From NCBI GenBank assembly GCA_039105265.1, contig JAPFFF010000001.1, positions 62,001 to 126,000 on the forward strand: a DNA stretch of 64,000 bases, read 5' to 3'. A program made the position numbers and the translations under genes. Positions 26,345 through 46,866 of the stretch are shown in pieces. Position 1 is the first letter of the stretch; each line of letters opens with the position of its first letter. This DNA is from Tritrichomonas musculus (Eukaryota; Parabasalia; Tritrichomonadida; Tritrichomonadidae). Under the pieces are notes generated by a model. The model saw only the letters and a list, made by a program, of their open reading frames with translations, was not told the DNA's origin and ran no database searches.

Positions 26345-26359
26345 CTTTGCATTGATCAA

Positions 26360-27457: not shown

Positions 27458-27463
27458 TATCAA

Positions 27464-28327: not shown

Positions 28328-28339
28328 TGAATTACAAAC

Positions 28340-28744
28340 ATGGGATTCAAAAATTTCATTACCAGTGGATGGAACAGATTAAAAAGCGATGTCCATCAAG
28401 GATTGACTGCTGCAAAGAATGCAGCTCACCACATATGGAGTGCCACTAAGAAGGGATTGATTGGTGCAAAGAACTATGCTATGAACAATCCTAAAGCAGT
28501 TGGCAATATATTACATGCTATCACACCATTTGCAACAGCATTCAATCCAACGTTAGGTGCGATCACTACAGCAGGTGCCAATATATTCAGTCACATGCCA
28601 AAGGGGTCGGTCACAGATAAGCTAGTTAAAATCAGTGAACAGTTTGCACGTGGTGAGTTGAAACCAAGTGGATCGCCATCAGCACAAGCAGCAGCTGACT
28701 CACGTAAGAGAACACACAACGCAGTACCATTTAGAAGTGTTTAA
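28340..28744 (+). CDS. small amphipathic-helix protein, candidate minor virion protein
   Basis: 134 aa. N-terminal amphipathic helix (FKNFITSGWNRLKSDVHQGL), then Ala/Lys-rich helices, a hydrophobic middle (VGNILHAITPFATAFNP) and a basic Ser/Ala/Arg tail. This is the character of membrane-active inner capsid proteins such as the adenovirus pVI type, and Polintons often encode a small protein here between ATPase and capsid. No sequence homology can be shown by eye. Packed 12 bp after the ATPase stop and 10 bp before the next gene. Confidence 0.55.
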   Translation: MGFKNFITSGWNRLKSDVHQGLTAAKNAAHHIWSATKKGLIGAKNYAMNNPKAVGNILHAITPFATAFNPTLGAITTAGANIFSHMPKGSVTDKLVKISEQFARGELKPSGSPSAQAAADSRKRTHNAVPFRSV

Positions 28745-28754
28745 CGAGTCATAA

Positions 28755-28970
28755 ATGAGTTTCAACACAAGAACTAATGCATATCGATCAAGTCAATCAG
28801 TTATCGTATCTGGACCTGGTACGATGTACAATGAAATAACTAGACCTAGATCAAACACCAAACAATATCACGCTAACACTAACACACATGATGTAACGAC
28901 ACCATATGTAAGGTCAAGCAATAGTCACAAATCAAAGTCACATAATAAACGTAAATCATCGCGTAAGTAA
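28755..28970 (+). CDS. small basic Maverick protein
   Basis: 71 aa, Ser/Asn/Thr-rich with a strongly basic C-terminus (KSKSHNKRKSSRK). Not recognised. A basic tail could bind DNA inside a particle, by analogy with core proteins, but this is inference. Start context GTCATAAATG, 10 bp after the previous stop; no ATTTTTR box, so it may be co-transcribed with its neighbours. Confidence 0.5.
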   Translation: MSFNTRTNAYRSSQSVIVSGPGTMYNEITRPRSNTKQYHANTNTHDVTTPYVRSSNSHKSKSHNKRKSSRK

Positions 28971-28985
28971 ACAATATTGACTTTT

Positions 28986-28993
28986 TATTTTTG
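28986..28993 (+). promoter_or_regulatory. TATTTTTG box
   Basis: Ends 10 bases before the ATG at 29,004. Matches the Maverick box seen before the capsid, PolB and other genes. Confidence 0.55.
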
Positions 28994-29003
28994 TGTAATT
29001 CAA

Positions 29004-29777
29004 ATGTCCAAATATGTTACTGGCATGAAGCGCAATCAGATCATTCAACGTTGGTTGCAAGGCATTGACGATGAACAATATGAAGTGTTCCCTACTAAGA
29101 AAGAGGGTAAGTACATTGTTAAACAACGAAAGCAACCACTCATTCATAGGGATAAATCATCAGACAACCTCAATGGTATGCTTGAATCAAGTGGTAATTC
29201 AAATGCTTACCTCAATGCTAACTCAAGTGGTAACTCAAGTGGTAACTCAAATGTCAACTCAAGTGATAACTCCAATGCTAACTCAAGTGGTAACTCAAGT
29301 GCCAACTCAAATGCTCACTCAAATGCTTATCTCAATGCTAACTCAAGTGATAACCTCAATGATGAACCATCACAACAATATGAAGAAGCACAACCTATGC
29401 ATACACCAACACGTCTACCTAATAGAATCAAACAACATGCTACTCAACGTACTACATCAATACCACATCAAGTTGCCACACATGATACAACCATTAACTT
29501 GGAGATCCTTGAACAGCTACGTTCATTAGGTGAAGAGCTACGTAACGATAGATTCAAGCGTGAACAAAAGCAATACTTCAAGCATGTCGTTAATAAGGAA
29601 CTATCAAAGCCACGCATAAGAAGTAAGTACGTACCTGATCTATTACCAACTGATGATATACATGACCCACCATATGAATCACCACATGATCCATCTCATG
29701 ACCCACCGCAAGAACCACCTGATGTCATTGAATCAACACCATCGTTTAGATCGCGCATACGAAGATATCTTATGTAA
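29004..29777 (+). CDS. Maverick Ser/Asn-repeat protein, unknown function
   Basis: 257 aa from the ATG at 29,004 (MSKYVTGMKRNQ); the reading frame upstream is leader. Basic N-terminus with an IIQRWLQGIDDEQYEVF segment, then NSSGNS/NSNANS repeats coded by 12-bp-like AACTCAAGTGGT units (29,190-29,360). A helical region follows (EILEQLRSLGEELRNDRFKR) and a DPP/HDP-rich tail ends in RIRRYLM. It lies directly before the capsid gene, so a structural or scaffolding role is possible but unproven. Confidence 0.6.
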   Translation: MSKYVTGMKRNQIIQRWLQGIDDEQYEVFPTKKEGKYIVKQRKQPLIHRDKSSDNLNGMLESSGNSNAYLNANSSGNSSGNSNVNSSDNSNANSSGNSSANSNAHSNAYLNANSSDNLNDEPSQQYEEAQPMHTPTRLPNRIKQHATQRTTSIPHQVATHDTTINLEILEQLRSLGEELRNDRFKREQKQYFKHVVNKELSKPRIRSKYVPDLLPTDDIHDPPYESPHDPSHDPPQEPPDVIESTPSFRSRIRRYLM

Positions 29778-29785
29778 TACATTCG

Positions 29786-29793
29786 TATTTTTA
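29786..29793 (+). promoter_or_regulatory. TATTTTTA box before the capsid gene
   Basis: Ends 10 bases before the ATG at 29,804, the same spacing as at 29,004. Confidence 0.55.
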
Positions 29794-29803
29794 ATACATC
29801 CAA

Positions 29804-31426
29804 ATGACATTCAACGCAGAAGTCCTACATAAGACATCGCCTGAAGTCAACACTCAAGTTGCAAGCTACTTTGATGTAGTTGATAATGCTATTGCCATGT
29901 CCGATACCAATCATAAGTACGTCATTGATGCACAAGCTTCATACAGTCCATCTGCACCCATCCATGCAGGGTCATTCACCACATTCATTATCAGTCCAAC
30001 ATGTGATAACACTGCAGATATATATAATGGCTTCATCAAAGCACAGATGAAACTTACTGGTACGTTAACAAATGCAATACAAGATGACATAAGTAATATT
30101 ACTGGCTATGCTTTTAATGGCCTATGGATTGGCTTTAAAGATGCTATGGATGCAGTTGAAAAGTATGAGATCCTTGCTAATGGCATATCAATATACACTC
30201 AAAACTTCGGTCCAGAAGAATCATTCTTAACTGCATGTGGTGATAACGAAGCAAGTAAACTTGGTGATGTCTATTCTAAAGCCCGTCATAAGGATATCTT
30301 CAAACGCAAATTTGATCAAGCACGTTGTGGTTGCGTCGTTAAACTTACCAATAAAGAAGATGGTGATAAGTTAAATGACATTATCATTCCACTTAAGATT
30401 GACTTGCGAAGGTTCTTACCATTGAGCAACATTAAATATCTACCTGCATTCGCTGGTAAGCTTGAACTCAAGATTATGTTTGGTGTACAGGGTCTTGTAT
30501 ATTGTCCAGTTGGTATATCAGATGAATTGATTAATGATGTAGTCACTTACAAATCATTTAAAGAAATACCACCAATCACTAATGAGTTTACTCAAGCTGG
30601 AAGTGAATGCACTATATGGGTTGGCTTAAACGATGATGATGGGCATAAGCTCGTTATGGGCAATACTACATTCACACCAAATCGAACATATGAAGTTACT
30701 GATTGTTATAGTGTCATACCTAACTTCGGCATTGACAATGATATATATCAAGCGCTCGTTCAACGTTACACGCAACAGGAACTCATCTTTCCAACGCAGA
30801 TACTCACATTCACAACGATGAGTAAGCAACTAGCTGTTGGTCATTGTTCGTCGACTCAAACAATCACACCACGATTTGTTGATTCAATCTTCTTTCTGTT
30901 TCCATTTAATGCAACACAACATACTGTATTTAAGAATCCACTGTTTGCCAACTTCCAACTGCGATGTGGTGGTTATGGCGTAGTACCAACCATTCCATTT
31001 TCAACGATTGGTAATGATCCGATGTTCATTGAACTATGTCAGAACGCTATGAATGTTAACGGTACACAAACAGGTTTTAATAAAGAGGTCGTTCAATCAT
31101 TAGTTAATACACGACCGTATAATGAATCAATTGGTTTTGTCAGTTATGATCGTACATCATTCTTCATTGGGTTACCAACTGAAACAGATAACACCTTCCA
31201 ACAAGGTCAAACATCAAACACACCAATCACATATGAAATCGTATGTGACATAGCGGAATATGTAAGTAATCTTGAAGGCAATGGTGTTACCAAAAACACA
31301 TATGTCGACAACACAACACCACCATTAATGGCATTGTTGCAAGACACCGTTATATCAATTCATGTTCAACCCAATGGTATGCCACCTGTTGTTGAGATGG
31401 GCAGCTACGACATCACAAGTCGTTAA
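29804..31426 (+). CDS. probable Maverick major capsid protein (double jelly-roll)
   Basis: 540 aa, beta-rich with no signal peptide or TM segment. Features expected of Polinton double jelly-roll capsids: an early beta region with FTTFIISPT, a middle signature where IIIPLKIDLRRFLPL leads to FAGKLELKIMFG, then a second half with alternating strands and Pro/Thr/Asn loops. Length and position (after the ATPase and small basic genes) suit a major capsid protein, which forms the trimeric shell unit. Assignment rests on pattern and context; structure prediction would settle it. Confidence 0.7.
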   Translation: MTFNAEVLHKTSPEVNTQVASYFDVVDNAIAMSDTNHKYVIDAQASYSPSAPIHAGSFTTFIISPTCDNTADIYNGFIKAQMKLTGTLTNAIQDDISNITGYAFNGLWIGFKDAMDAVEKYEILANGISIYTQNFGPEESFLTACGDNEASKLGDVYSKARHKDIFKRKFDQARCGCVVKLTNKEDGDKLNDIIIPLKIDLRRFLPLSNIKYLPAFAGKLELKIMFGVQGLVYCPVGISDELINDVVTYKSFKEIPPITNEFTQAGSECTIWVGLNDDDGHKLVMGNTTFTPNRTYEVTDCYSVIPNFGIDNDIYQALVQRYTQQELIFPTQILTFTTMSKQLAVGHCSSTQTITPRFVDSIFFLFPFNATQHTVFKNPLFANFQLRCGGYGVVPTIPFSTIGNDPMFIELCQNAMNVNGTQTGFNKEVVQSLVNTRPYNESIGFVSYDRTSFFIGLPTETDNTFQQGQTSNTPITYEIVCDIAEYVSNLEGNGVTKNTYVDNTTPPLMALLQDTVISIHVQPNGMPPVVEMGSYDITSR

Positions 31427-31458
31427 TACATGTTAATGTGTAACTAATTTATATTATC

Positions 31459-31465
31459 ATTTTTG
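31459..31465 (+). promoter_or_regulatory. ATTTTTG box
   Basis: Ends 11 bases before the ATG of the HNH gene at 31,477. Confidence 0.5.
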
Positions 31466-31476
31466 ACTTCACGCAA

Positions 31477-32082
31477 ATGACTATTGAACAGCATTGGGAA
31501 ACACTTAAAGTTGATTCATCATATGAGATCTGTATTGAATACCCATATCAAGTCAGACGTAAGGATAACCATAAGGTTGTATCTGAATCAATGAATGGAA
31601 GTGGCTATCCACAATTAAGTTTGAACTCAACCACATATCCTAAGCATCGTGTCATTGCATTACAATGGATAGCTAATGATGACACTGTCAATAAGGTTGA
31701 AGTTGATCACATTAACAAAGATAGAACAGACTATCACATTAGCAATTTGCGTTGGGTAACACCTACTGAGAATCGGCTTAATAAAGCAGGTCATGGCCAT
31801 ATTAAGTATGAGTATTTTGATGACATACCAGATGAATCAATAGTGATTGACACGTATGAGACTAAAAATGGTATGCGTTACTTTGAACAAGGTCGATATT
31901 ACTATTACCATGATGATGCTAATGATGAAGATGTGTTCTACGGTAAGGTAGCTGATGAGCTATATCGAAGGCTTCATATCAATGTAACAAAGGATGGATG
32001 TAAAGTGGTTTCTTGCAGAGACATTAATAACAATCAAGTAGGGGTATGCATCAACAAGTTTAAACGTCAACATGATCTTTAA
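31477..32082 (+). CDS. HNH homing-type endonuclease (NUMOD4 + HNH)
   Basis: 201 aa. Opens with a NUMOD4-like segment (HWETLKVDSSYEICIEYPYQ). The HNH_3 core follows: KHRVIALQWIAND, VDHINKDRTDYHISNLRWV and TPTENRLNKAG, giving the His-Asn-type metal site. The C-terminal ~90 residues repeat a Tyr-rich beta pattern and may bind DNA. Such nucleases cut DNA and help selfish genes spread between phages or large viruses. It has its own ATTTTTG box, so it is expressed like an element gene and not as an intron rider. Confidence 0.85.
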   Translation: MTIEQHWETLKVDSSYEICIEYPYQVRRKDNHKVVSESMNGSGYPQLSLNSTTYPKHRVIALQWIANDDTVNKVEVDHINKDRTDYHISNLRWVTPTENRLNKAGHGHIKYEYFDDIPDESIVIDTYETKNGMRYFEQGRYYYYHDDANDEDVFYGKVADELYRRLHINVTKDGCKVVSCRDINNNQVGVCINKFKRQHDL

Positions 32083-32105
32083 TCAATGTATTTGTTTTTG
32101 ATGAA

Positions 32106-32294
32106 ATGTCATCACGAAACGTTCAAATCATGAGCCATCGTCAGTGTATAACACCTAACCCACCCATCACACAACCTAAGTTCAAGCACCCACCTACACA
32201 TTACAAAGAGAACCTAGCGTGTAATGATGGTAAAGCAAGTAAGGTTAATGCTAAGCAATTGATATTGTATAAGGATGACGTCAACTCATATTAA
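32106..32294 (+). CDS. small Maverick ORF, unknown
   Basis: 62 aa, basic and Pro/Asn-rich (NPPITQPKFKHPPTHY). Not recognised. A GTTTTTG box (32,094-32,100) lies 5 bases before the ATG, the strongest reason to accept it as a gene. Confidence 0.4.
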   Translation: MSSRNVQIMSHRQCITPNPPITQPKFKHPPTHYKENLACNDGKASKVNAKQLILYKDDVNSY

Positions 32295-32296
32295 GT

Positions 32297-32590
32297 GCTC
32301 GATTAATGTATCACTCAATGTATTGCCTAGTGTATCACTCAATGCTCAGTCAATGTATCACTCAATGCTTAGTCAAGTGTATCACTCAATGCTCAGTCAA
32401 TGTATCACTCAATGCTCAGTCAATGCTTAGTCAATGTATCACTCAATGCTTAGTCAAGTGTTCACTCAATGCTTAGTCAAGTGTATCACTCAATGCTTAG
32501 TCAAGTGTTCACTCAATGCTTAGTCAAGTGCTTGCCTGATGTATCACTCAATGCTTAGTCAAGTGTATCACTCAATGCTTAGTCAACTGC
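32297..32590. repeat. ~24-bp intergenic tandem array A
   Basis: About a dozen units close to TGTATCACTCAATGCTTAGTCAAG, with length variants. The first half (TGTATCACT.AATG) is shared with the array at 41,970-42,290. Non-coding, between two forward genes. Confidence 0.85.
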
Positions 32591-32656
32591 ATTACATCAC
32601 ACAGCTTACATGCAACAGCTGAAGGTGGTGAGTAAAAATGTTTTTGTTTAATTCAA

Positions 32657-33181
32657 ATGATTAAGAAGCGACCATTAAACACTGGCGTAAATGCCAACGT
32701 CAGTCTTGAGCCAGCAGCTGCAGCACAATCAAACAACAATATTAACAACAACATATTCATCAACAAGCGTGATGATGGCAAAGAAGATATCGTTATCACA
32801 CGTGATGTTCAACTTGATACACCACACGATAGCATTGATGTTGATGTTAAGGTACTCATACTTGAAACGTATGCTAAGATACTACTTGACAATGACAAGG
32901 CATTGATCAGCAATCTCATCAGCAAGCGCACTATCATCGTACCACAGCAAGCATTAGCAGCAATCATCAAGGCAGTCACTCATGGTGAGGTTGAGATATA
33001 TGTCGATGACAACCCTGGTTGTTGTGTGGGTAAAGCATCACCCATTCAAAAGGTAGACGCCATTAAGGTAATCAAAGATAATGGTGAGATTGTTACTGAC
33101 TTCAAACAGGTATACAATAAAGAGTTCAATGATCTCGTTAATGTTTATCACTTATGTTTGAAGTATGTTGTTGTATGTTAA
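32657..33181 (+). CDS. Maverick hypothetical protein
   Basis: 174 aa, not recognised. Basic N-terminus, then an Asn-rich linker. From ~55 on there is a compact alpha/beta domain (DVDVKVLILETYAKILLDND, IIVPQQALAAIIKAVTHGEV) with a GCCVGKA segment and a hydrophobic C-terminal helix. A GTTTTTG box lies 10 bases upstream, with the usual ATTCAAATG start context. Confidence 0.6.
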   Translation: MIKKRPLNTGVNANVSLEPAAAAQSNNNINNNIFINKRDDGKEDIVITRDVQLDTPHDSIDVDVKVLILETYAKILLDNDKALISNLISKRTIIVPQQALAAIIKAVTHGEVEIYVDDNPGCCVGKASPIQKVDAIKVIKDNGEIVTDFKQVYNKEFNDLVNVYHLCLKYVVVC

Positions 33182-33402
33182 ATGATAGCTCAAGTGATAG
33201 CTTAAATGATAACTTAAGTGATAGCTCAAGTGATAGCTCAAGTGATAGCTTAAATGATAACTTAAGTGATAGCTCAAGTGATAGCTCAAGTGATAGCTTA
33301 AATGATAACTTAAGTGATAGCTCAAGTGATAGCTCAAGTGATAGCTTAAATGATAACTTAAGTGATAGCTCAAGTGATAGCTTAAATGATAGCTCAAGCA
33401 GT
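33180..33402. repeat. 12-bp tandem array B
   Basis: About 18 copies of a 12-bp unit (AGTGATAGCTCA, AATGATAGCTTA, AATGATAACTTA), ordered in a 60-bp higher-order pattern. It starts at the stop codon of the forward gene and ends ~30 bp before the 3' end of the reverse-strand fibre gene, so it separates convergent genes. Open frames on both strands here are repeat artefacts. Confidence 0.9.
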
Positions 33403-33431
33403 ATGTAAAAACATAGGAGTTATTTTTATGT

Positions 33432-36400
33432 TCACGACAATGAATGTATTACATTCTTAGTGTTATCTTCAAGTAAGATACCATTTGATGTAAAGAATGA
33501 CGAGTTAATCATTATGTAATTAGCTGTTGCATTTATTATGAAATTGTTACCACTTAATGGAAATTCAATATTGTTTAACCAGATCTTAGTTGGTTCACAT
33601 TGATATTCATACTTAGGTGAATTATTAACGTTGAATGATATATTGATTTTGATTTCCCTTTTACTAGCAACATTATCTTTGGTTTCATTGTAAGTCAAAT
33701 AGAGTGTTCCATCATATGTATCAAGTTGTTTCTCGAATTGATAACGAATGATATTACTATTCGCTACACTGAATGTATAATTGATTCGTGTTAATTTATT
33801 CACCAATGCATCTAACCTAGCTCTTAATGATTCATTCTCACGCTGTAGATTTGATATCTGACTGTTCATTGTTAATATTGTAGAGACATTATCACCTACT
33901 ATCCTAGCTAGATCTTGATGAGATTTAGCATATGTGTTCAACTCACTCTTCAATGCATATCCATCGAGATCACCCATAGTAGCATAATCATCTGGCATAT
34001 CACTCTTCAACATAAGTGAATCAGATGGCATATACACATGAGTGAGTGTCAATGAACATTCACGCATACCATTGTTGGAGTAATGCCTAGCATATACATA
34101 GCCAGTACTTATATCATACTGAAGACGAACACCATTGAAATTGCCATTCAGATAGTAATTCTTTGTCATGCCCTGATCAGATGATGTCTTCCATATGATA
34201 TCGAACTTAACCGTTTCATTCGTTATAGCATCAGTGTATCTACCAATGAAGTGATAACCATTTGGATTACCTGTTGTTGGTGTTACCTTCGCATATTCAT
34301 ATCCAGAACTAGTAGCCAATGATTCGACTGTCATCTCTGAGTAAACCATTATGTTATCCAGCTTACGGTATGAACCTAATGTAATATCATTATTTGGTAG
34401 CTCACTCTTCAACATGTACTCATTCAATGTAGCAGCCTTAACATAATCAGTTGGTATATCATCTAAACGCGCATATCCATCCAACTGATCAACAACGACA
34501 TAATCATCTGGCATATCACTCTTCAACATGTACTCATTCAATGTTGATGTTAACTGCGATGTTGTAACATGATTAGTTGGTATCTCACTCTTCAACGCAT
34601 ATCCATCGAGATCAACCATAGTAACATAATCATCTGGCATATCACTCTTCAACATGTACTCATTTAATGTTGATGTCAACTGTGATGTTGTAACATGATT
34701 GGTTGGTATCTCACTCTTCAATGCATATTTGATATCAGATTCATTCTTAACTGTATCCAATGCTGTATTAACCTCATCAACAGTTGGAAAGTCATTCAAC
34801 GTTTTAGCAAGTGACTCATCGTTCAACTCAAGTTGAGCACGTAATGAATCAATGCTTTTATTCACTGCGTCAATGTCACATGTATATGCTAAATCATTCG
34901 TTGTGAGTGTCAATTGTCTAACCGATGTGTTTTCTTTAACAGTTATGCTTGTGACCTGTACATTGTGTGGGTTGTTAATCGTAATGATGTTGCCACTCAT
35001 CGTTGCTGCTGGAAATGTATCTGTACCAATGAACTCAGCTATTGCATCATCCACAATGTTGATTGTAACATAATGTTCATCATAGTCAATGTCATTGAAC
35101 TCGCTAATCGTTCTAACCATGAGTTTGACTTTAAGTACACCACTTGTGATCGTGTCTTCAGCTATGAGTTGAATCGTTTTACCATCAACCTTGCCAACAA
35201 CATCAATGGTATCATTACGTGCTAACTCATTCTTGTTAACATATCCATCCATCTGTACAGATACATCACTGATTGCATTTGCCAGTGCTTTGATGGTAGG
35301 CTTGAGTGTATGTCTGAATCGTTTACACATGTCCATTGTTGATGTCAATGTCATTGCCACTTTAGATGGATCATCGAGTTCATCACTGAAGTTCATCTCT
35401 GTTACTGGTATGTATTCTTCATCACACCATTGAGCTATTCTACTTAACGCTTCATCTTGAGTGACAGCTTGAGTTGAACTGTTAGTCACACTTAACGTTG
35501 CCATCTTAGCACTACCAACTAAGTCACCGAAGAATATGTCAGAGCCAATATCAGGTAGTTCATCAGTCAGCTTACCTACCATGTCATCCAATACATCAGC
35601 TCCAACATCACTAGCTTTAGTTATGGTGTTAACTAACTCACGACCACCTGATTTGACAGCTGAACCAACACCCTTCGTTGCAAATGATAATGCCTTACCA
35701 GCAACACCTATGCCAGTGGCACCTAACACACAGCCAACAGCACCTAACGCAATACCAACATTTGCTTTCATATCAATCTTATCAACTTCCTTCTCAAGGT
35801 ATTTAGTCTTAGCTTGTTGGTCAGTCATCTGCGAGCCAAGTGCATCAACCTTAGATTGCACTTCCTTAACATCATACGATACTACATCAACGTTGTTAGT
35901 AACGAGATTCAAGTCAGATCTCATTGTAGTGATATTGTCAGCAGTGATTATCTTCGATGATGTAATGTTGAAGTCAGTGTATAGTGTTGTAGCTGAGTTT
36001 GGATTAGGTGACACTTCATAGAACTGTTGCTTGATGATGTATTCGAATGCATTTGTAGATGGATCCCAATTAACTTCATCAATAGGATCAGTATAATCAT
36101 GACGAAGGTATAATGCAATATCACGTGGTGTTAAGCCATCATCATTGCTGGTTTGAGTGGGTGTCTTACTCCATACATATGCCACTCTTTCGACTGTATC
36201 AAGTGCTCCACTTAAATCAACGTATCCTCTATCATATACATCATTTTTATTATGAACTTCACCAACTGTGAATGATAACCTCATGGTATGCTCTTGATGT
36301 GGCAACGTCAAGTCAAGGTATAGTAATTCAATGTCGCTTACTTTGAGTGTTGATGTTGAGTAATTATTATATGTACAACTCATTGCAACCAAATCATAAC

Positions 36401-39400
36401 CATCCATCGTTGCACCATTGAGTATAAATGAATAGCCAATGTTGAGTTCATACTCAGATGCATTAACCAATCTACCATCACGCAACTTAATCAGTACCTC
36501 ATACTTGCCATCATTGCGGCATGTGTTGAGTAGTGAATATGCTAAGCCACGTGTTTTGTCTTCAGGTATTGCTCTGTAATTCAACGTATCACGCTTGACT
36601 GCAACCATACAACCAGTTGAACCATAGTTATCTTCTTTAGGATCACGTGTTTTACACTTGCTGATGACCTTGCTTTGGAACCTACCTTGAATACTGTCAC
36701 CAACCCACTTGTTACCATCCCATGTCAATGCCCATGTGTTGCCAAAGCAGTACTCACTAAATTTGAACGTTAAGTTGGTTGGTATGTCATACGTTGATGG
36801 TATCTTATACACCATTCGATAGCACTCACATTCATATTCAAGTTGTTCATTCGCAAACATGTCAGTGTATTTAACATGTTCATCATAGTCAATCATTGAT
36901 GGTCGATAGAAGTAATATGTGTCAGAGCGTTGTAACTTCAATGCATTAGTTGCATCTATGATGTCACACTTGATGGTTGGCTTACGTGCTACCAATGCAT
37001 CCGTTGAGAGTAGGTTGTGAATTACTATGTCACCATTCAAGAAGCGTATGTATGGTTCAATGTTGAAGTAACTTGCAAACATTATCTCAGGATCATCTCG
37101 TTTGCGTGTTGAGTATGTGCAACAATCACGTGCTACGTTGTGTGTCAACTCTGGGCAGATGAACTTACCATCTTTAGCTGATATGATGAAGTCATTTAAG
37201 ATGTTGCCTTGCCAATCGAATAATAACATGTTACGCAAGTGAATCTTAAACACATCAACTGATGTTGAAGCAGTGAGTTTGTTTTTGAGTGCAGTTGGTA
37301 ATGTTATCTTCATGATTATGACTGGATCATTAACTGGATCATCAACATTTGATTCACTGCTAACAGTTGGTGAGTATACGGTTATGTCATCATGCTTGAC
37401 ATAGTAAACAGGATAACCTTCTTGAATTGCAAACTCATCTGATTCACTTGTGGTGGGTTGGTTGTTAGACTCTAGCTCTTGTACCTTGTATGAGAGCAAC
37501 GCTAATGGCCCTTTGATGGTGTCACGGAATGACTTACATATGTTGACGCATGAGTTTAATGACACAGCTTGATCGTTATCATTTGGTAATGAGATATCGT
37601 CTTCAGTGCTTGTACACCAATCAATGATGGGTTGAAGAATGGATGTTGAATCATTAGTGCTAGCTTGAGTTACATCTTGAGTGCTAGCTTGAGTTACAAC
37701 TTGAGTTACAACTGGAGTGCTAGCTTGAGTTACATCTTGAGTTACATCTTGAGTTACAACTTGAGGTGATACATCATGAGCTGCATCTCGAGTTACATCT
37801 TGAGCCGATGGTTGGTTTGACTTATGAATAGCACGTGGTATGTACAGTAACGCATCAACCATAGGTACAAGTATACGCTGACCACGACATACAACATAAC
37901 GGTCAGTTAACGATGGATGATCTAATAACCATTCAACATCATGCTCGATCTCTTCAATTCTACTATTGATGTTTGAGATGAAGCCACGTAATGTGGATTG
38001 CTGTTGTTCATCATGTTGACGCATCCAAGCTATGTCACTATCACTGAGTACGAGACTGGTATGTGGATTGGAAATGGTTATGCGATTGCCATCTATTGAT
38101 ACTTGATTGAGACGCCTACGATCAATCACACCAATGACGTTGTTACTATGTAATACCTCAGTATACTCCTCATCAGCATCATTTAACGTTGCATCATGTG
38201 GTCTGAAGCGTATTGCTGGATTCTCATTGGTTAACCTATGTCGTTCATACCAATCCATCTGTTCAACGTCAGCTAACGTGAGTGTTGTATTTGGAATTGT
38301 AACATCACCATCTGTAGTAGGTGTTAACTCATGAGTTGATACGACAACATTGTATTCATTAGCAACTAACTCATGTACTTCATCCTGTCCTGTTGCATTG
38401 ATATCACCTTGCTGCATACTGATGCCGTGTGAGTTGATCGTGATATTTGACTCAGGACTATGAATTGATATCTCATCACTGCTAACATCAGTACTAACTG
38501 CTATTCTCACATCAATGACAGCTTGAATGGAACCATTCATGTCCCTCACTTCAGTCCAGCTAACTCCCATCTCATTATCAACGTTGCGTGTAAATACATA
38601 CTCTGGATGTGATGATTCAAATTGATACCTCTCATCTGGTTCCATGCGTTCAATCTGAGCTGCTGTATAAACCGTACCATTGTCATTGACACTCCACATT
38701 GAGTTGGTATTAACGCTTCTCATTGTGCATAAGCTTAATTGTTGTGACGTTAACGTGCTGCTTTCATTATCAATTCGTCTCATGTATATTATTTTATTAA
38801 CACCCTTATCATTAACACGTGTTACGTATATCAATCCGAATCGATTGTCACCTACTCGTCTAACCATGATGTCACCTATTTGTGGACCTTCAATTGGATC
38901 GTATGTGTTCAAATCAAGTAGTTCATCTATTGATAGGTTTGATAATGATTCAATGGTATGATCACCGAATAATGGTTGACTAAAAGCTGATGTATTGGTA
39001 ACTGTTTCATGAGTCAATCTAACAGCTGGTGTGTTGGTGGTAGTTGCATCATCATCAATATCATCTAACTCCATCTCATCAGTGTTAGTAATAGTGTGAT
39101 CGACAATGGTATTGTTGTTAGTTCGTTCTCTCCATCTACGTCGCAACTCACGTACAGAGTCAGTGATGGTATGCAATGATTGTTGAATCGTACGTGTTGC
39201 ATCAACTATGGCTGGTATGCGATCTAGTGTCAAACCCCCAGCAATCAATGTGGTAGTTGCATTGCCAATTTGAGTTAATGAATCTAATGCACTTAGTACG
39301 AGATCAGTTGCTGTCATAGATGATACTGCTGCTGGTATGGTTGTCTGACCAGGTATGAATCGTTTAAGCACATGACTCTCTGCATTAGTGTCCATATCAA

Positions 39401-40844
39401 GTATGAACTTACCACTGATTGGTTGCTTGCCACCTGGGTAATCATCACCGCCTAAACCAGGGTAGGTGAAATCTTCAGTACGATATGTGTTGATACTCAC
39501 GTTATCACTGCTCATCGTTAGGTTTGATAATGCACTCACCATCTTAACGAATCCAGTTAATACACTGAGTATGTCATTAGCAATGGATAGGCCACTCTTG
39601 ATTGAGTCAGTGAATTCATTGTAAGCTGCTTGTAATCGTAGTTGTTCTTGTATGCCATTGATGATTGCACGTAAAGTGGAGTAGTCATATGCTAGTACGT
39701 CAACAGTACCACCAACTACGTTTAGATCCCTACGCATTGTCATGATGTTATCAGCCCATATGATTTTCGATGAGTACACGTTATGATCTGTGACGAGTGT
39801 GGTACAATTACGTGGATCAGGTTTAACTTCATAAAACTGTTGTATGATCATTACATCGAATGGATTGAATGTATCATCAGCTAGTTGTGGTGTTTGTTCG
39901 AAGTACTGCTTTTCAATGTAGATGTTGATGTCATTATTAGCATTTGCCTCTGGTACTACCTTGTTTGAATGCACTGCTTCACGACGATAGTTGAATGATT
40001 CAATGACTGGGTTATCGTTCCATGTATGAATGTAACTCATGCTGAGTGGTGATATTGGATGAAGATCCCATCTCAATGGGGTGACGTATAGTTCATCATT
40101 AACGGTGAATGTAATGTCGGCCATCAAGTAGAGTAGGTTGTCTGATTTGATGTTGTTGACTTTGATGGTAAACTCTTGTGCATCACATGAGCTGCCATTG
40201 ATGGTGTACTTAGGTGTTGATGATAGTTTGATCGTTGAGTTCGATTCATTAAGTTCAATGATGGGACCATCTTTCTGTGCAACTCTCCAGTTGGTGATGT
40301 GGTTTGATAGTAAGGTTGCAACGTTTGATGTGTCAGTAACAGTTTCAATGCATGATAACCACTTAACGATGTAGTCAGAGTGTTGAACGATTAAACATGG
40401 GCTGCCATTGTTGTTGGTTGTGGTTGACTGCTTAGCGAATGATAAGTTAACGACGTTATTACCTGACCATGACTTACCATTCCATGTCAATGCCCATGAG
40501 TGGCCATAGAGATAATCATTGAATTCAAAGCGTGTGTCAAGTGGTATGTTGTAGTTTGAATCGATGTTCCATGTCATGACATAGTACTTTGACGTTTGAC
40601 TTATGGATGATGGTTTGTATAGGTAAAGCTGATCTGATTCATTAAGTGTGAATTGAGTATTATCCTTAATGGTTGTTTGCATTGATTGTAATGCGTCATC
40701 GATTTCATTCTTAGTATAGATGCAATTGATATGTACATCATCTGTTTTACCATTGCGTGTTAATTTTAATTCACCATTACGTATTCTCATATCGTAACCC
40801 TTATCAGTGAGTGATAGTGCTTGAGCAGCAAGTGGTGCTATCAT
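33432..40844 (-). CDS. giant Maverick fibre-like protein
   Basis: 2470 aa, a third of the element. The N-terminus has MRIRNGELKLTRNG and IYTKNEIDDALQSM, like phage tail-fibre segments. A ~300-residue beta-rich module (GHSWALTWNGKSW ... QQFYEVKPDPRN) occurs twice, near residues 50-430 and 1330-1660. Between them lie acidic repeats and a TQDVTQAST stretch (~1015-1060). A Gly/Ala hydrophobic segment (GIALGAVGCVLGATG) is near 1700. Two 42-residue repeats (YALKSEIPTNHVTT, EYMLKSDMPDD) plus partial ones span ~2040-2300. A coiled-coil stalk (NLQRENESLRARLDALVNKL) and a beta-rich ~120-residue tip follow. This architecture suggests a trimeric attachment fibre; function is inferred. Confidence 0.85.
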   Translation of the reverse strand: MIAPLAAQALSLTDKGYDMRIRNGELKLTRNGKTDDVHINCIYTKNEIDDALQSMQTTIKDNTQFTLNESDQLYLYKPSSISQTSKYYVMTWNIDSNYNIPLDTRFEFNDYLYGHSWALTWNGKSWSGNNVVNLSFAKQSTTTNNNGSPCLIVQHSDYIVKWLSCIETVTDTSNVATLLSNHITNWRVAQKDGPIIELNESNSTIKLSSTPKYTINGSSCDAQEFTIKVNNIKSDNLLYLMADITFTVNDELYVTPLRWDLHPISPLSMSYIHTWNDNPVIESFNYRREAVHSNKVVPEANANNDINIYIEKQYFEQTPQLADDTFNPFDVMIIQQFYEVKPDPRNCTTLVTDHNVYSSKIIWADNIMTMRRDLNVVGGTVDVLAYDYSTLRAIINGIQEQLRLQAAYNEFTDSIKSGLSIANDILSVLTGFVKMVSALSNLTMSSDNVSINTYRTEDFTYPGLGGDDYPGGKQPISGKFILDMDTNAESHVLKRFIPGQTTIPAAVSSMTATDLVLSALDSLTQIGNATTTLIAGGLTLDRIPAIVDATRTIQQSLHTITDSVRELRRRWRERTNNNTIVDHTITNTDEMELDDIDDDATTTNTPAVRLTHETVTNTSAFSQPLFGDHTIESLSNLSIDELLDLNTYDPIEGPQIGDIMVRRVGDNRFGLIYVTRVNDKGVNKIIYMRRIDNESSTLTSQQLSLCTMRSVNTNSMWSVNDNGTVYTAAQIERMEPDERYQFESSHPEYVFTRNVDNEMGVSWTEVRDMNGSIQAVIDVRIAVSTDVSSDEISIHSPESNITINSHGISMQQGDINATGQDEVHELVANEYNVVVSTHELTPTTDGDVTIPNTTLTLADVEQMDWYERHRLTNENPAIRFRPHDATLNDADEEYTEVLHSNNVIGVIDRRRLNQVSIDGNRITISNPHTSLVLSDSDIAWMRQHDEQQQSTLRGFISNINSRIEEIEHDVEWLLDHPSLTDRYVVCRGQRILVPMVDALLYIPRAIHKSNQPSAQDVTRDAAHDVSPQVVTQDVTQDVTQASTPVVTQVVTQASTQDVTQASTNDSTSILQPIIDWCTSTEDDISLPNDNDQAVSLNSCVNICKSFRDTIKGPLALLSYKVQELESNNQPTTSESDEFAIQEGYPVYYVKHDDITVYSPTVSSESNVDDPVNDPVIIMKITLPTALKNKLTASTSVDVFKIHLRNMLLFDWQGNILNDFIISAKDGKFICPELTHNVARDCCTYSTRKRDDPEIMFASYFNIEPYIRFLNGDIVIHNLLSTDALVARKPTIKCDIIDATNALKLQRSDTYYFYRPSMIDYDEHVKYTDMFANEQLEYECECYRMVYKIPSTYDIPTNLTFKFSEYCFGNTWALTWDGNKWVGDSIQGRFQSKVISKCKTRDPKEDNYGSTGCMVAVKRDTLNYRAIPEDKTRGLAYSLLNTCRNDGKYEVLIKLRDGRLVNASEYELNIGYSFILNGATMDGYDLVAMSCTYNNYSTSTLKVSDIELLYLDLTLPHQEHTMRLSFTVGEVHNKNDVYDRGYVDLSGALDTVERVAYVWSKTPTQTSNDDGLTPRDIALYLRHDYTDPIDEVNWDPSTNAFEYIIKQQFYEVSPNPNSATTLYTDFNITSSKIITADNITTMRSDLNLVTNNVDVVSYDVKEVQSKVDALGSQMTDQQAKTKYLEKEVDKIDMKANVGIALGAVGCVLGATGIGVAGKALSFATKGVGSAVKSGGRELVNTITKASDVGADVLDDMVGKLTDELPDIGSDIFFGDLVGSAKMATLSVTNSSTQAVTQDEALSRIAQWCDEEYIPVTEMNFSDELDDPSKVAMTLTSTMDMCKRFRHTLKPTIKALANAISDVSVQMDGYVNKNELARNDTIDVVGKVDGKTIQLIAEDTITSGVLKVKLMVRTISEFNDIDYDEHYVTINIVDDAIAEFIGTDTFPAATMSGNIITINNPHNVQVTSITVKENTSVRQLTLTTNDLAYTCDIDAVNKSIDSLRAQLELNDESLAKTLNDFPTVDEVNTALDTVKNESDIKYALKSEIPTNHVTTSQLTSTLNEYMLKSDMPDDYVTMVDLDGYALKSEIPTNHVTTSQLTSTLNEYMLKSDMPDDYVVVDQLDGYARLDDIPTDYVKAATLNEYMLKSELPNNDITLGSYRKLDNIMVYSEMTVESLATSSGYEYAKVTPTTGNPNGYHFIGRYTDAITNETVKFDIIWKTSSDQGMTKNYYLNGNFNGVRLQYDISTGYVYARHYSNNGMRECSLTLTHVYMPSDSLMLKSDMPDDYATMGDLDGYALKSELNTYAKSHQDLARIVGDNVSTILTMNSQISNLQRENESLRARLDALVNKLTRINYTFSVANSNIIRYQFEKQLDTYDGTLYLTYNETKDNVASKREIKINISFNVNNSPKYEYQCEPTKIWLNNIEFPLSGNNFIINATANYIMINSSFFTSNGILLEDNTKNVIHSLS
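34450..34735 (-). repeat. 126-bp coding repeat in the fibre gene
   Basis: Two highly similar 126-bp units encode 42 residues each (YALKSEIPTN ... DLDGYALK). Diverged partial copies lie at ~33,950-34,020 and 34,400-34,450. Typical of phage fibre shafts. Confidence 0.8.
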
Positions 40845-40854
40845 TTACCATCGA

Positions 40855-40860
40855 TAAAAT
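40855..40860 (-). promoter_or_regulatory. ATTTTA box before the fibre gene
   Basis: On the reverse strand, 10 bases before the fibre ATG (40,844). It lies within an imperfect palindrome (ATCATTT...AAATGAT, ~40,840-40,863) that also contains the start of the forward gene at 40,859. Confidence 0.45.
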
Positions 40861-41617
40861 GATACTTTCATTGAAAAGCATTGGGCCAGACTACAATCGT
40901 ATACGTGCTAACATACAAATACCATGGAACTGTCAATATATCGAGTACTACGTTGCGTCAATCAATACAAAGAATGTGTTACTTATATCACATGATGATA
41001 GCATAACATATGAGTGGAACGATAATGATGATGATAATACACGCCAAACCACTACTATGAAGTTGGAAGACAGATACTATTCAATACCAAGTGATATACC
41101 CGATTTGTTTAACGTGCAAGATGTTAATGGGCGACCAATTATGGAAACACGAATAAGTAACAATACTAATATCATTTACATAACACCACATGTTGATGAC
41201 TTTACTATCACATCAATGTCACATCGCATAGCATTGATTACTGGGTTGTATAACTTACCGCTTAACCAACCGTTAGTAAATGGTAGAACAATGAGATGCA
41301 GCATTCCAATATTAGACTACGCTAACAAGCTATACTTGATATCGAAGCAAGGTCAAGCTATTCAATCCAACTTGGGTGATGCTGAGTATACACCATCAGT
41401 GATAGCTAGCATTGATCATGTCATTCGATATGGTGTGCCAATCATACAGAACTTTGAAACGTATGGTAAGCCAATCAAAAATGTTGTTAACATTGATTCA
41501 TTCAAACAGATTGAGTTGGAGTTGGTTGACTTCGAATATCAACCTGTTAAGTTAATGTCACCTATGTTCGTTACGATTAAGGTTAACCCATGTGATCCAC
41601 CAAAGATGACGCTGTAA
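40859..41617 (+). CDS. Maverick candidate minor capsid (penton-like) protein
   Basis: 252 aa from the ATG at 40,859 (MILSLKSIGPDYN); the upstream extension would overlap the fibre start. Beta-rich, with IQIPWNCQYIEYYVASI, FTITSMSHRIALITGL and a closing IELELVDFEYQPVKLM then FVTIKVNP strand pair, similar to the end of the protein at 25,095. A single jelly-roll penton protein is expected in Mavericks, and this is the best candidate by size and pattern. It lies head-to-head with the fibre gene (14 bp between start codons), which would suit coordinated production of vertex and fibre. The assignment is inferential. Confidence 0.6.
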   Translation: MILSLKSIGPDYNRIRANIQIPWNCQYIEYYVASINTKNVLLISHDDSITYEWNDNDDDNTRQTTTMKLEDRYYSIPSDIPDLFNVQDVNGRPIMETRISNNTNIIYITPHVDDFTITSMSHRIALITGLYNLPLNQPLVNGRTMRCSIPILDYANKLYLISKQGQAIQSNLGDAEYTPSVIASIDHVIRYGVPIIQNFETYGKPIKNVVNIDSFKQIELELVDFEYQPVKLMSPMFVTIKVNPCDPPKMTL

Positions 41618-41624
41618 AAATGAT

Positions 41625-41870
41625 CTATTTTTGTTCTGCACTAATGTTGGTTGTTATGGCAGCCTTAAATGCGCGCAACTCAATGAGCTCTTGCTTTTTA
41701 CGTTCACGGTATTGCTTTTGTTGTTGCCTTCTAGCATTGATACGTTCTTCATCAGTGAGGTAAAGCTTTTTACGACCACGCTTTTTAGGTTCATTAACAA
41801 TACCCTGCTTTGATTTGAGTGATTTAACTACAGCTGTATCGTTAAACAATTCAGTGTTGATGCTTGACAT
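41625..41870 (-). CDS. small basic bZIP-like Maverick protein
   Basis: 81 aa from the ATG at 41,870 (MSSINTELFND). Very basic: a KKRGRKKLYLTDEE segment, then a single charged helix INARRQQQKQYRERKKQELIELRAFKAA. It resembles the basic region of bZIP proteins without a clear leucine zipper, so DNA binding is plausible. A TAAAAAT (ATTTTTA on its strand) box lies 11 bases upstream. A related basic helix occurs in the outer-element ORF at 52,009. Confidence 0.6.
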   Translation of the reverse strand: MSSINTELFNDTAVVKSLKSKQGIVNEPKKRGRKKLYLTDEERINARRQQQKQYRERKKQELIELRAFKAAITTNISAEQK

Positions 41871-41881
41871 TTGCAATGAGA

Positions 41882-41888
41882 TAAAAAT
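41882..41888 (-). promoter_or_regulatory. ATTTTTA box
   Basis: Reverse-strand box 11 bases before the ATG at 41,870. Confidence 0.5.
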
Positions 41889-41959
41889 CATATTATGAAA
41901 TGTGATATGAAAACAAAATGAAAAATTTTATGTGCTTATTACGTAATGCATTATGCAAT

Positions 41960-42295
41960 GTAGTGGGAATGATTTAAATATCACTTAATGTATAGCATAG
42001 TGTATCACTTAATGTATAACGTAGTGTATCACTTGAATGTATAGCTTAGTGTATCACTTAATGTATAGCATAGTGCATCACTTAATGTATAGCATAGTGT
42101 ATCACTTAATGTATAGCATAGTGTATCACTTGAATGTATAGCATAGTGTATCACTTGAATGTATAGCATAGTGCATCACTTAATGTATAGCATAGTGTAT
42201 CACTTAACTGTACATTGAGTTATCACTTGAGGTGTTACATTGGGTTATCACTTAACTGTACATTGAGTTATCACTTGATGTGAGCATTGGCTATG
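41960..42295. repeat. ~24-bp intergenic tandem array C
   Basis: About 13 units near TGTATCACTTAATGTATAGCATAG, some shifting to CACTTGAATG or CATTGAGTTATCACTTGA. The unit shares its first half with array A (32,297-32,590). It separates two reverse-strand genes. Confidence 0.85.
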
Positions 42296-42311
42296 ACCAA
42301 AAATGAATCGT

Positions 42312-42764
42312 TTAAACTGTATCATTAATAGCATCTCTAAATGCTTCAACTGAGTTCTGCTCATTGAGTTTACTTCTACGTTCATTGATGGCATCATTTG
42401 CTTTGGCATAGATTGATTCATAACGTTTCAACTCATGACGTAAGCATAACTTATCAATGTAATACTTGTAATAGGTATGTGTTTCATTGTTGTCTGATAC
42501 AAACTGACGTGGTGTTAGGTCAATGGTCAACAGCATTGGATTACGATAAATGGTTCGATAACGATTCTCACGTATAGTTATGTATGGTACCTTACCAAAT
42601 ATGTTAATCAACCCATTCATATCAATGGTTCTGTTACCATCGATGACTAGTAATGGTCGAACACTAATGCCAAATTCAATAGGGTATATCTTACTATCAA
42701 GATAGACGATTAACTTATCATCATTAGTTGGTTTGATTGTTTCAACGAAGCTAGTAACTGACAT
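42312..42764 (-). CDS. Maverick hypothetical protein next to PolB
   Basis: 150 aa from the ATG at 42,764 (MSVTSFVETIKPTN). A longer frame reaches back into the PolB gene but lacks a suitable start context. The beta-rich first half (LIVYLDSKIYPIEFGI, PLLVIDGNRTIDMNGL) is followed by a helical, charged C-terminus. Not recognised. A TATTTTTA box lies 15 bases upstream (42,780-42,787). Starts 65 bp after the PolB stop on the same strand. Confidence 0.6.
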   Translation of the reverse strand: MSVTSFVETIKPTNDDKLIVYLDSKIYPIEFGISVRPLLVIDGNRTIDMNGLINIFGKVPYITIRENRYRTIYRNPMLLTIDLTPRQFVSDNNETHTYYKYYIDKLCLRHELKRYESIYAKANDAINERRSKLNEQNSVEAFRDAINDTV

Positions 42765-42779
42765 TGTTTGTGATGCGAA

Positions 42780-42787
42780 TAAAAATA
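42780..42787 (-). promoter_or_regulatory. TATTTTTA box
   Basis: Reverse-strand box 15 bases before the ATG at 42,764; it supports that start over the longer frame. Confidence 0.5.
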
Positions 42788-42829
42788 ACAATGGTGAAAT
42801 GCAATGTTTATACATGAATTGTTGTAGTG

Positions 42830-45800
42830 TTACTTGAATTGTAGTGTACGACAGAATTGGGGTAATGTTATTTGTTGAAATGACTTTGTTTTTCGGAAGC
42901 AGTTGCAACCATCAGTTAAGTCAAATGTGATTGCTTCACCATGATACATACGTTCATACAACTCTTCAACAGTGATGTTCATGCGTTTGCACTTGTTGTA
43001 GATGCATTGATTTGGAATTCCTTTAGCCCTAACATGATACCCCACATTGTCATGTTCATCAACGAGTATATCGAGATATGTCTTCTTACCCAATGCAATG
43101 AGCTTACGTGAGTGGATCTTACCAACTGCACCAGGGAATGAATCGAAGTCACAATGAAACTGTGTCATATCACTGCCAATTAACTCTTTACCATATGTTG
43201 CTTTGAATAATGCAGCTAACTTATCAACATCATCTTCATTTAAGTGCATGCTATCAGTATCTTGGTAGTATATCGCTATGTCATTCTGTTCAGCGAGTGT
43301 CATGACTTGATTCATGATGTGCTTACTCCATGATAACACTGTCGCACCAAACTGTGGTAGGTTGTAGTGGTCATTGATTGGTTTGATTACCTTAATGAAT
43401 GCCTTAGTATTGTCATTGGTGACAACCTCTTTGATATAGTTATAGTTGCGATATATGTATGGTATGACATCATCATTGTTAACGATCTTAACTTCATCTG
43501 TGATTGGCTTTAATATCGACTTGCCATAGATTGAGTTGAGTAGCAACTTGATGGTCTTCTCAAGTGGGTTGCGTTCACGCTTGTATGTCACTCTCAAGTT
43601 GAAGAGCGTTTTGATGAAGTCATTGATGAGTGTGTTGAAACCATCATTGAAGTAATAACCACGTATGAATTCATATTCAATATCATAAGCTGCAATCAAA
43701 TCAATCAAACCAATCTTGTCAATGTAGAAGTGGTCAACTGGTTGGTTGCAAAACAGTTTAGTACCAGCTTCATTACGTATGAATACTTGACCGAACCTAT
43801 ATGGATACTTTGACTTAGGTGTTAATCGTTTGATGTTGATCTCAATGAAGAACGTATCATAACACATGAGTTGATCGTGAGTTGTGTTTGATGGTATAAC
43901 TTGTGGTTTACCCTTTGGTATGCCTGGCATGATCGACATTGCAGATGGATATAAGCTGACTGCATCGAAGTCCTGTATCTTACCTTCAACATATTGCTTC
44001 TCATTGTTAGCTGTCATTGTTCTACCATCACTAACACAACGTTGGATGAAGTTCTGTGGCTTACCTGATAGTTTGAAGCAGGCTTTGAAGCAACCGTATG
44101 TACGTGCGAAGTCATAACCTATCGCGCTGATTGATATGTACTGGTTAATGCCAGGGAATTTACTCTTAGCATTGGTGAACACTTCATTAAGATCATGATC
44201 AAACTTAAGTAAGCCTTTCATGAGTGTGTAGCAATCTGCACGGCAGTAGAACATAGCGTATTTCATTATGTCAATCATGTGTGTGGATTCATTGTATGTG
44301 TATTCGAATAACCTATTAGCGTGTCGTGCATTGATGAGTAGCTGCTTGCAATCTTGTGTAAGTTCATCTAATGTCATATCATCAATGTGTTCGTTGCGAT
44401 ATTGATCTTTGAATTCATCGAATGGTATCATCTTACGTTTGATGTTAGCTTCAGTGTAGAGTTTATATGGCATGATTTCTTTATGACATGTGAGGTTGAA
44501 CATATTACCGAACTGTGATAGTGGCGCTGGTATGAGTGAGTAACTGTTACGGAATGTTAAACGCTTGATGACATCTTCATATTCACCTTTACGTTTGTTG
44601 TATATCGTTATAGGTCGTTCCATAACTACTTGCAAGAGTGTACCAGTACGTTGTGTAACATGAACATTCCAACCTGGTTCATTGATGAAGAAGCAAGCGT
44701 CATACTTAAGGTTATGGAAGTATGTTAATGAATTGTTACATAAATCATCTAAGAATCGCTTTGCAATGTCATCACCAGTGTAATCAATAAAGCCTCTACC
44801 ATCAAACCTACAACACAAGTATGGACGGTGTGGTGATACCGTTACGTCTGTCTCGAAGTCAGCGTAGTAAACCCTTGTCCATGGCGTAATACGTTTGGCT
44901 TTAGATTCTTCTTCTTGACAACATAACGTTTCAATATAGTCGAGTTCAATGTAATCATTCAAGTGGTTATCGAACTCACATGTTGTTAATATGTTTTGTT
45001 CACATTGATTAATCTCACGGAAGCAGTTGCATTCAAACATAGTTTCCATGACTGACAACATAGGTGCACCATTTGAAGTATCACCTCGGTTATTCGTTAT
45101 CAATTGCCTTTCATTCAATGGTCGATCTGCAAATTTAACATCAAGTTCATCCCTATGTTTGATGTAATATGTAGTAATGGGTAATATCTCATTGTTATCT
45201 ATCATGAAGTGGCCTTTGTAAAGAAGCAACTTAACCTCTCTATCAGATTTAACATCAGCATTCTTACGTGTGTTTACACTTGGCTGTTTGCGGTGTCTAG
45301 ACTCTCTACTTGCATCAAATCGATACACAACGAAGTGGCATTGCATGTTGATTGCAATCTTAAGTATTTTCTTGTTAGGTACTGAACGTGTTCGCATCAT
45401 GCCACGTAACTTATCAATCTCATCATCAGTGAATACACCTGACTGAATGCATGCATATACGAAGCAGTTGTCAGTATAGTTTTTAGCATCAACCTCATGG
45501 TATATCTGATAACGTGTTAAGTCAAGCGATGGAATGAGGTTAACATATGGAAAGAATGCACCTTCATAAGCAGCACGAAATGCATCAACTGAAGTGAGTT
45601 CATTATATTCACCATCAATCTTCTCATAGAATGTTATCTTGCCATCATGCTTAGACATAGTAATGAACCTAATGACAAACCTAACTGGTATGTAATCTAA
45701 ACCAATTAACGTAGGATCAGTGTCAGAACCAAATGATTCAACTGTGACTTCACCAAGGATTGCACTAATCGCTGTTTCAATAGCTAACTCATTGTTTAAT

Positions 45801-46270: not shown

Positions 46271-46279
46271 TTAAATGGC

Positions 46280-46855: not shown

Positions 46856-46866
46856 GCTATAGTAGT

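Follow-up and report, generated by a model that had tools for sequence, protein, structure and literature searches.

A giant, modular, fibre-like gene with exchanged distal cassettes in Maverick elements of Tritrichomonas musculus

What does a single gene of 2470 codons do inside a mobile element of Tritrichomonas musculus? The question is raised by an open reading frame in the window, that is, the whole stretch of 64,000 nucleotides analysed here (contig JAPFFF010000001.1, positions 62,001 to 126,000). A preliminary description, made from the letters of this stretch, had read the protein as the long attachment fibre of a particle, and the element as a Maverick that may be an exogenous or semi-exogenous virus of trichomonads. 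According to the accessible part of PMC10120064, published estimates assign to Mavericks about a third of the genomes of T. vaginalis and T. foetus (34% in T. foetus), and 4,841 major capsid proteins (MCPs) are given for T. vaginalis, in whose elements, as a notable exception, capsid genes had gone undetected. The main text of that source, as far as it is accessible, does not use the words fiber, fibre or tail.

The element is indeed a Maverick. It is bounded by identical terminal inverted repeats and by a target duplication, and its boundaries and genes are as follows:

24461..46866, no strand: Maverick element, 22,406 bp, defined by the paired repeats and the 5-bp target duplication
24456..24460, no strand: left copy of target duplication AAAGG, abutting the left repeat
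24461..25047, no strand: left terminal inverted repeat, 587 bp, 100% identical to the right one
25095..26333, + strand: 412-aa gene, no family match of weight in profile searches
26360..27457, + strand: rve-type integrase (rve 19.1 bits, E 0.0016, below the cut-off of 32.6)
27464..28327, + strand: A32-like packaging ATPase (Pox_A32 24.7 bits, cut-off 22.8)
28340..28744, + strand: 134-aa gene, matched beside 15/15 fetched copies of the fibre gene
29004..29777, + strand: 257-aa repeat-bearing gene, matched beside 15/15 fetched copies
29804..31426, + strand: candidate MCP, 540 aa, 307 relatives at E <= 0.001
31477..32082, + strand: HNH endonuclease (HNH_3 E 2e-8)
32657..33181, + strand: 174-aa gene, 98-100% identical beside 15/15 fetched copies
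33432..40844, - strand: giant fibre-like gene, 2470 aa and stop, a single uninterrupted frame
40859..41617, + strand: 252-aa neighbour gene, putative penton or minor capsid protein, head-to-head with the fibre gene
42312..42815, - strand: 167-aa gene, an open frame with no Pfam or NCBIfam match
42830..46270, - strand: type B DNA polymerase (DNA_pol_B_2 E 4e-27 in a profile search)
46280..46866, no strand: right terminal inverted repeat, 587 bp, 100% identical to the left one
46867..46871, no strand: right copy of target duplication AAAGG, abutting the right repeat

A type B DNA polymerase, long terminal inverted repeats with a target duplication and an A32-like ATPase, by which a Maverick is recognised, are thus found together. 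The 540-aa gene is the candidate for the MCP, a label given from its position; it has neither a Pfam match nor a meaningful PDB sequence match. Among the 12 open frames scanned, no Pfam match to an adenain-type maturation protease was obtained. The GC content is 0.371 in the element and 0.335 and 0.271 in the flanks.

The Maverick is inserted into a transposase gene and splits it in two: the piece on its right matches DDE_1, and the piece on its left is an open frame that reads on into the Maverick. This interrupted, pogo-like gene occupies 23808-24470 and 46867-47343, its frame crossing one copy of the target duplication, and it is bracketed by 880-bp inverted repeats (21168-22047 and 47346-48225; 97% alike) with a QQANQG repeat open frame, which may be the ends of an outer transposon. 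Short tandem repeat arrays lie between the genes of the Maverick at 32284-32609, 33180-33400 and 41980-42230, one of them directly after the fibre stop codon. Further out, a BEACH-domain protein of 3130 aa is found at 10787-20179, with a long NNEE[IT]NKEE repeat run on the minus strand. Two neighbouring coiled-coil-like proteins lie in the flank at 54511-58143 (1210 aa, with calponin-homology domains) and at 62085-63911 (608 aa), the latter starting like the former.

The giant frame, for which the preliminary description had named no strand, is read from the minus strand, the plus strand being full of stops. From the N-terminus to the C-terminus, its parts are as follows, all on the minus strand:

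40665..40844, - strand: N-terminal segment, residues 1-60, candidate tail for docking on the capsid; its identity tiers recur in the 252-aa neighbour and partly in the MCP
39615..40697, - strand: module A, residues 50-410, 28% identical to module B, E 1e-36
39528..39584, - strand: hydrophobic segment of half A, residues 421-439, about as far past a TMR[SR]DLN motif as in half B
35895..36977, - strand: module B, residues 1290-1650, beta-rich model, mostly pLDDT 70-93
35907..35990, - strand: strongly conserved motif TTLYTDFNITSSKIITADNITTMRSDLN, residues 1619-1646, present unchanged or slightly varied in 25 module copies from 20 proteins
35820..35903, - strand: heptad segment, residues 1648-1675, score 0.95 against a 95% shuffle level of 0.78
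35703..35759, - strand: Gly/Ala-rich hydrophobic segment, residues 1696-1714, mean hydropathy 2.01
34902..35222, - strand: small beta domain, residues 1875-1981
34386..34721, - strand: LKS[DE] repeat shaft, residues 2042-2153, with 1-8 LK units across 16 copies
34017..34385, - strand: knob cassette K2, residues 2154-2276, seen in none of the 15 other fetched copies
33939..34016, - strand: second block of LK repeats, residues 2277-2302
33786..33938, - strand: distal helical or coiled-coil stalk, residues 2303-2353, TolA_bind_tri E 0.0023 (below cut-off), heptads partly within 2332-2359
33435..33785, - strand: C-terminal tip T1, residues 2354-2470, 83-99% identical in 14/15 other fetched copies

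The features that had been picked out by eye are recovered by measurement. Eight motifs of the LKS[DE] type (seven LKS[DE] and one YTKNE, the full YTKNEID being residues 43-49) were counted; 1000 shuffles gave 0.135 on average and never more than 2. The duplicated module of about 350 residues aligns residues 50-410 with 1282-1678 at 28% identity (E 1e-36), and the model of its second copy is beta-rich, as described. Residues 1696-1714 form the highest hydropathy window of the whole protein, and the heptads at 1648-1675, 2332-2359 and 946-973 score above the 95% level set by the top-scoring windows of 200 shuffled sequences. The separate tip corresponds to residues 2354-2470. At the level of sequence, a coiled-coil or repeat shaft is present ahead of a distal knob, and the coiled coils and LK repeats fit a fibre.

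Searches for a known relative yielded little. The profile search against fibres that had been advised gave nothing: Pfam and PHROGs, searched with the protein, with its pieces and with five relatives, and NCBIfam, searched with the protein and two relatives, returned hits that were weak (coiled coil) or due to chance, and no fibre-annotated family. Likewise, PF12789, PF01391 and PF13884 gave no match for P0001 (E <= 1), five relatives (E <= 0.1) or five pieces (E <= 10), though the filters of HMMER may hide weak matches. The fibre tail had no match in phage records (tblastn), and scans of IMG/VR with the fibre, the DNA polymerase, the fibre alignment and the MCP alignment returned no relative. 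PDB sequence searches gave chance hits, such as haemolysin E on residues 1644-1766 (E 0.18-0.2). One PHROG of undefined function, phrog_7927, matches the LK repeats of the relative P0017 (E 0.001). Below the Pfam cut-offs, TolA_bind_tri was seen on the distal stalk (E 0.0023), and CENP-F_leu_zip (E 0.0025) and Dynactin_p22 (E 0.013) on the relative P0009.

A host cytoskeletal origin, which the preliminary description had named among the findings that would speak against a fibre, was considered and rejected, because no match was above cut-off and nothing matched beyond weak coiled-coil hits in the protein of the window and a relative. As for structure, the monomer model of residues 1285-2470 has a mean pLDDT of 54.2, and that of residues 1-1140 (mean 43.7) is too poor for a fold search. 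Fold searches (Foldseek, VIA) gave no decisive match among the families listed, the best PDB match having E 5e-3 and no BFVD match with E <= 0.001 reaching a TM-score above 0.11.

The gene is present in many copies. In the genome searched (193,395,805 bp, 746 contigs), all 19 scored fibre copies, the best of 2703 candidates, have frames of 2246-2470 aa without an internal stop. For comparison, 15 of the 18 other scored copies were fetched, giving 16 genes with that of the window; the three unfetched duplicates (second C40, C218, C648) each equal one fetched copy in every listed value. All 16 genes are open over 2246-2470 aa, and the module B DNA of the fetched copies is 97-99.6% identical to that of the window; since the copies were chosen by best score, this sample favours intact genes. 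Over the body, pN/pS is 0.23-0.31 in the nine closest copies (L011-L019; pS 0.043-0.099) and 0.40-0.44 in six mosaic copies (L020-L025). At the synonymous rate, 12-27 stops per pair would be expected in L011-L019, and none is seen in the open frames. That is to say, the fibre body in the nine closest copies is under purifying selection.

Module B was also traced over the whole genome, where 113 places were scored of 1930 candidates, 51 of them 97-100% identical and 62 of them 68-80%, with a stop inside the match in 4 of the 113. Of the 51, 33 lie in frames of at least 2246 aa and 18 in frames of 742-2056 aa, the latter probably broken or cut by contig ends. The surroundings are preserved too: matches to the MCP, ATPase, integrase and 134-, 257- and 174-aa genes occur within 7 kb of the fibre gene in 15/15 fetched copies. 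The HNH match occurs beside 9/15 and beside none of L020-L025, and the HNH endonuclease gene adjoining the MCP gene is perhaps a mobile homing gene. The MCP is free of stops in 79 of 80 scored copies (of 2181 candidates). Internal stops were seen in one of these 80 copies and also in the 252-aa neighbour of L020 (G000:C43:60283, G000:C11:2430609). Between the window and two metagenome contigs, the MCP has dN of 0.20 and 0.41, synonymous sites being close to saturated or fully so; judged against these contigs, its constraint appears similar to that of the fibre. The contigs, from bacterial metagenome bins (L001, Lachnospiraceae; L002, Mycoplasmatota), carry Maverick integrase-ATPase-MCP stretches, with MCPs 73% and 53% identical, and are probably protist DNA misbinned into bacterial genomes.

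The distal part of the protein behaves quite differently from its body. The comparison of tips between Maverick copies, which the preliminary description had proposed, finds unrelated distal domains on near-identical bodies. Beyond residue ~2030, the 16 copies carry 1-8 LK units and differing knobs: K1 (117 aa) in 13, K2 in one (the window), K3 in one, and no knob in two. The T1 tip ends 15 of the 16, while L014 has no T1 and carries both K1 and K3. K1, K2 and K3 have no significant similarity to one another, and the bodies bearing them have module B DNA 97-99.6% identical to that of the window. Every cassette type recurs at at least 83% identity in many loci; genome-wide, K2 is found in 18 places and K3 in 38 (both at 87-100% identity), and K1 and T1 have at least 150 matches each.

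Cassettes were assigned to bodies if they lay within 4500 bp of a module B place on the same contig. The table covers all 113 module B rows, 18/38 K2 and 38/51 K3 rows (those at 87% or more), and, from contigs with a module B row, 42 of at least 150 K1 and 69 of at least 150 T1 rows, the counts being lower bounds. Among the matches listed, the 51 near-identical bodies carry seven combinations of K1, K2, K3 and T1, counting none as one: K1 with T1 (29), K3 (10), K1 with K3 (5), T1 (4), and one each of K2 with T1, K2, and none. Each of the four cassettes occurs both on bodies of 97% or more and on those of 68-80%, where the cassettes are 78-94% identical. Cassette identity follows module B identity (Spearman 0.39 for K1, 0.56 for T1, 0.81 for K3 and 0.90 for K2), so cassettes pass from one body class to the other to a limited extent, not freely. 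Slow evolution of the knobs with an old polymorphism is possible; unrelated knobs on the same near-identical body nevertheless require replacement. T1 (33435-33785) and K3 (L014:7101-7469) were never seen on one fibre in the 113 places, among the matches listed, as if they were alternative ends.

The T. musculus homologues P0005 and P0006 are identical at 2158 of 2181 aligned residues (99%) up to an LK repeat and then at 85 of 326 (26%), and in 35 of 45 pairs from ten proteins with complete C-termini, the last 115 residues have no similarity at E <= 0.01. By these alignments, distal cassettes have evidently been exchanged between copies, most clearly in P0005/P0006 at an LK repeat. Mosaicism extends beyond the tip, as in half A of L021, whose DNA is 65% identical to that of the window over residues 1-60, 98% over 60-410, 64% over 870-1010 and 99.6% over module B. 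The idea that T1 is the main variable part was rejected, as in the copies of this genome the internal knob is more variable and T1 is the commoner end. Between P0001 and P0004, T1 is 82% identical and module B 41-47% (binomial tail 4e-4, with the 68% of another stretch of the same pair as background); higher T1 identity alone is weak evidence.

At the other end of the protein, the identity of residues 1-60 to the window separates the copies into three tiers, namely 95-100% (L011-L019), 92% (L022-L024) and 63% (L020, L021 and L025). The 252-aa neighbour repeats these tiers (89-100%, 85-86% and 63%, L011 not being among those listed). The MCP follows them in part: its first two tiers overlap (87-94% and 85-88%), and the third stands apart at 69-72%. 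L021 has a third-tier N-terminus and MCP despite a module A that is 99% identical to that of the window. The start codons of the fibre and the 252-aa gene lie 14 bp apart, head-to-head, in the window and in 14/14 fetched copies for which the neighbour is listed. For the neighbour, the tiers can be explained by linkage; the MCP gene, however, is on the far side of the fibre gene from residues 1-60, with the near-identical middle in between, and its tiering across this middle fits docking of the N-terminus on the capsid. Such docking would be a lead drawn from few independent groups of sequences.

The fibre protein is intact, selected and modular, and it belongs to an element with capsid-candidate and packaging genes. 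Probably, though not with certainty, the gene encodes the attachment fibre, or a fibre-like spike, of a particle made now or recently by the Maverick. This remains the best reading, and the tip comparison supports it strongly, even though no decisive fold match was obtained and the N-terminal half is poorly modelled. The great length, the coiled coils and the conserved hydrophobic segments would also suit a large internal or scaffold-like virion protein (a tape-measure or core protein), whose variable C-terminus would reflect relaxed constraint on linkers, and very weak tape-measure PHROG matches exist (E 0.81 for the window, E 0.094 for P0009). We consider such a protein very unlikely: whole cassettes are replaced, each recurring at 83% or more in many loci, which is not decay, and T1 and K3 never stand together in the 113-row table, among the matches listed. 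Least probable of all, and highly improbable in itself, is an adhesin or secreted surface protein that is no part of a virion, is lent to the host and is selected for host colonisation. The fixed head-to-head link of the fibre gene to the 252-aa gene, the tiers common to the fibre, the 252-aa gene and the MCP, and the lack of a host family match above cut-off all speak against it, in spite of the modular, adhesin-like layout, the gut-dwelling host and a weak Big_2 match in the relative P0008 (E 0.055, below cut-off).

The knob mosaicism might, on the other hand, be mainly passive, arising by gene conversion among copies in one nucleus without selection on binding or recent infection. Material for it is plentiful, as copies are many (80 MCPs scored of 2181 candidates, 113 module B places of 1930), the repeats supply homology, half A is also mosaic (L021), and some frames are short and probably broken. 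However, the fibre body is under purifying selection, and the unrelated knobs cluster distally, among the LK repeats, with module B hardly varying; moreover, conversion alone leaves an open 7.4-kb fibre frame in a transposon unexplained. On balance, a mainly passive origin is rather unlikely.

For the attachment fibre, the following working is proposed. The N-terminal 60 residues would attach to the capsid, their partner there probably being the protein from the head-to-head 252-aa gene; the fibre body would consist of modules A and B and their coils, and the shaft of the LK repeats. The conserved hydrophobic segments may help membrane crossing, a guess from their conservation. The knobs K1, K2 and K3 and the end T1 would bind a surface, either that of the trichomonad itself or that of a bacterium or virus taken up by it. 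Exchange of knobs between co-resident elements would then change the binding target, with the body and the capsid interface kept constant. The element may have an exogenous stage. A wider proposal, made tentatively and with more doubt than belief, is that the Tritrichomonas Mavericks represent the integrated stage of an infectious virus population that recombines and switches its fibre knobs. Cassettes from a large pool within one genome would be joined at the LK-repeat region onto a constant, capsid-matched body, so that a eukaryotic virus would switch receptors much as phages do with their tail fibres.

Phage tail fibres with tip exchange have a conserved proximal part, a repeat shaft and swapped distal receptor-binding cassettes. 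The plan is the same here; the differences are the eukaryotic Maverick, the lack of a match to an annotated fibre family, and the lack of a recognised C-terminal chaperone. The adenovirus fibre is built of an N-terminal tail, a repetitive shaft and a distal knob, and is several times shorter than the fibre described here; its plan would match, but no sequence or fold match to it was found.

Closer in setting are the polinton-like viruses. It has been reported, in the accessible part of PMC12220804, that many of them have fibre-like proteins of up to 3.9 k residues and that proteins with collagen and phage-tail repeats (PF12789) occur in 20 T. vaginalis elements. The statement in the preliminary description that Maverick cores lack such a protein is thus right only in part. 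As here, these fibres (in cryptophytes and other protists) are very long modular proteins of integrated protist elements with capsid genes; they are read as attachment fibres, and a trichomonad host is common to both (PMC12220804, accessible part). Unlike them, the present protein has no listed match to phage-tail repeats, collagen, laminin G or Peptidase_S74; it has a duplicated module of ~350 aa with a hydrophobic segment, and knobs exchangeable across one genome. In the available part of PMC12724248, the virophage DSLV2 has heterotrimeric tail proteins, likewise tail-fibre-like, from a small eukaryotic DNA virus and read as receptor-binding, but encoded by three separate genes with phage relatives, whereas here there is one giant gene and no phage relative was detected for the tail. 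In that part, a bacterium eaten by a protist is also proposed as the target of a virophage (PMC12724248).

In the accessible parts of PMC4642659, PMC7805220, PMC12721341 and PMC11071308, no fibre of such a kind is found, and the literature search, with subscription journals mostly outside its reach, turned up no account of exchanged knobs in trichomonad Mavericks. The kind of fibre has therefore been published before, and what is new lies in the layout, the missing usual fibre domains and the exchange of cassettes.

A pure transposon would hardly be expected to have a selected, intact fibre gene with exchanged end cassettes, and the swapped end pieces suggest that the elements make, or recently made, infectious particles. 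Whether these elements form such particles becomes a directly testable question, and the defined knob domains provide handles for finding the target that is bound.
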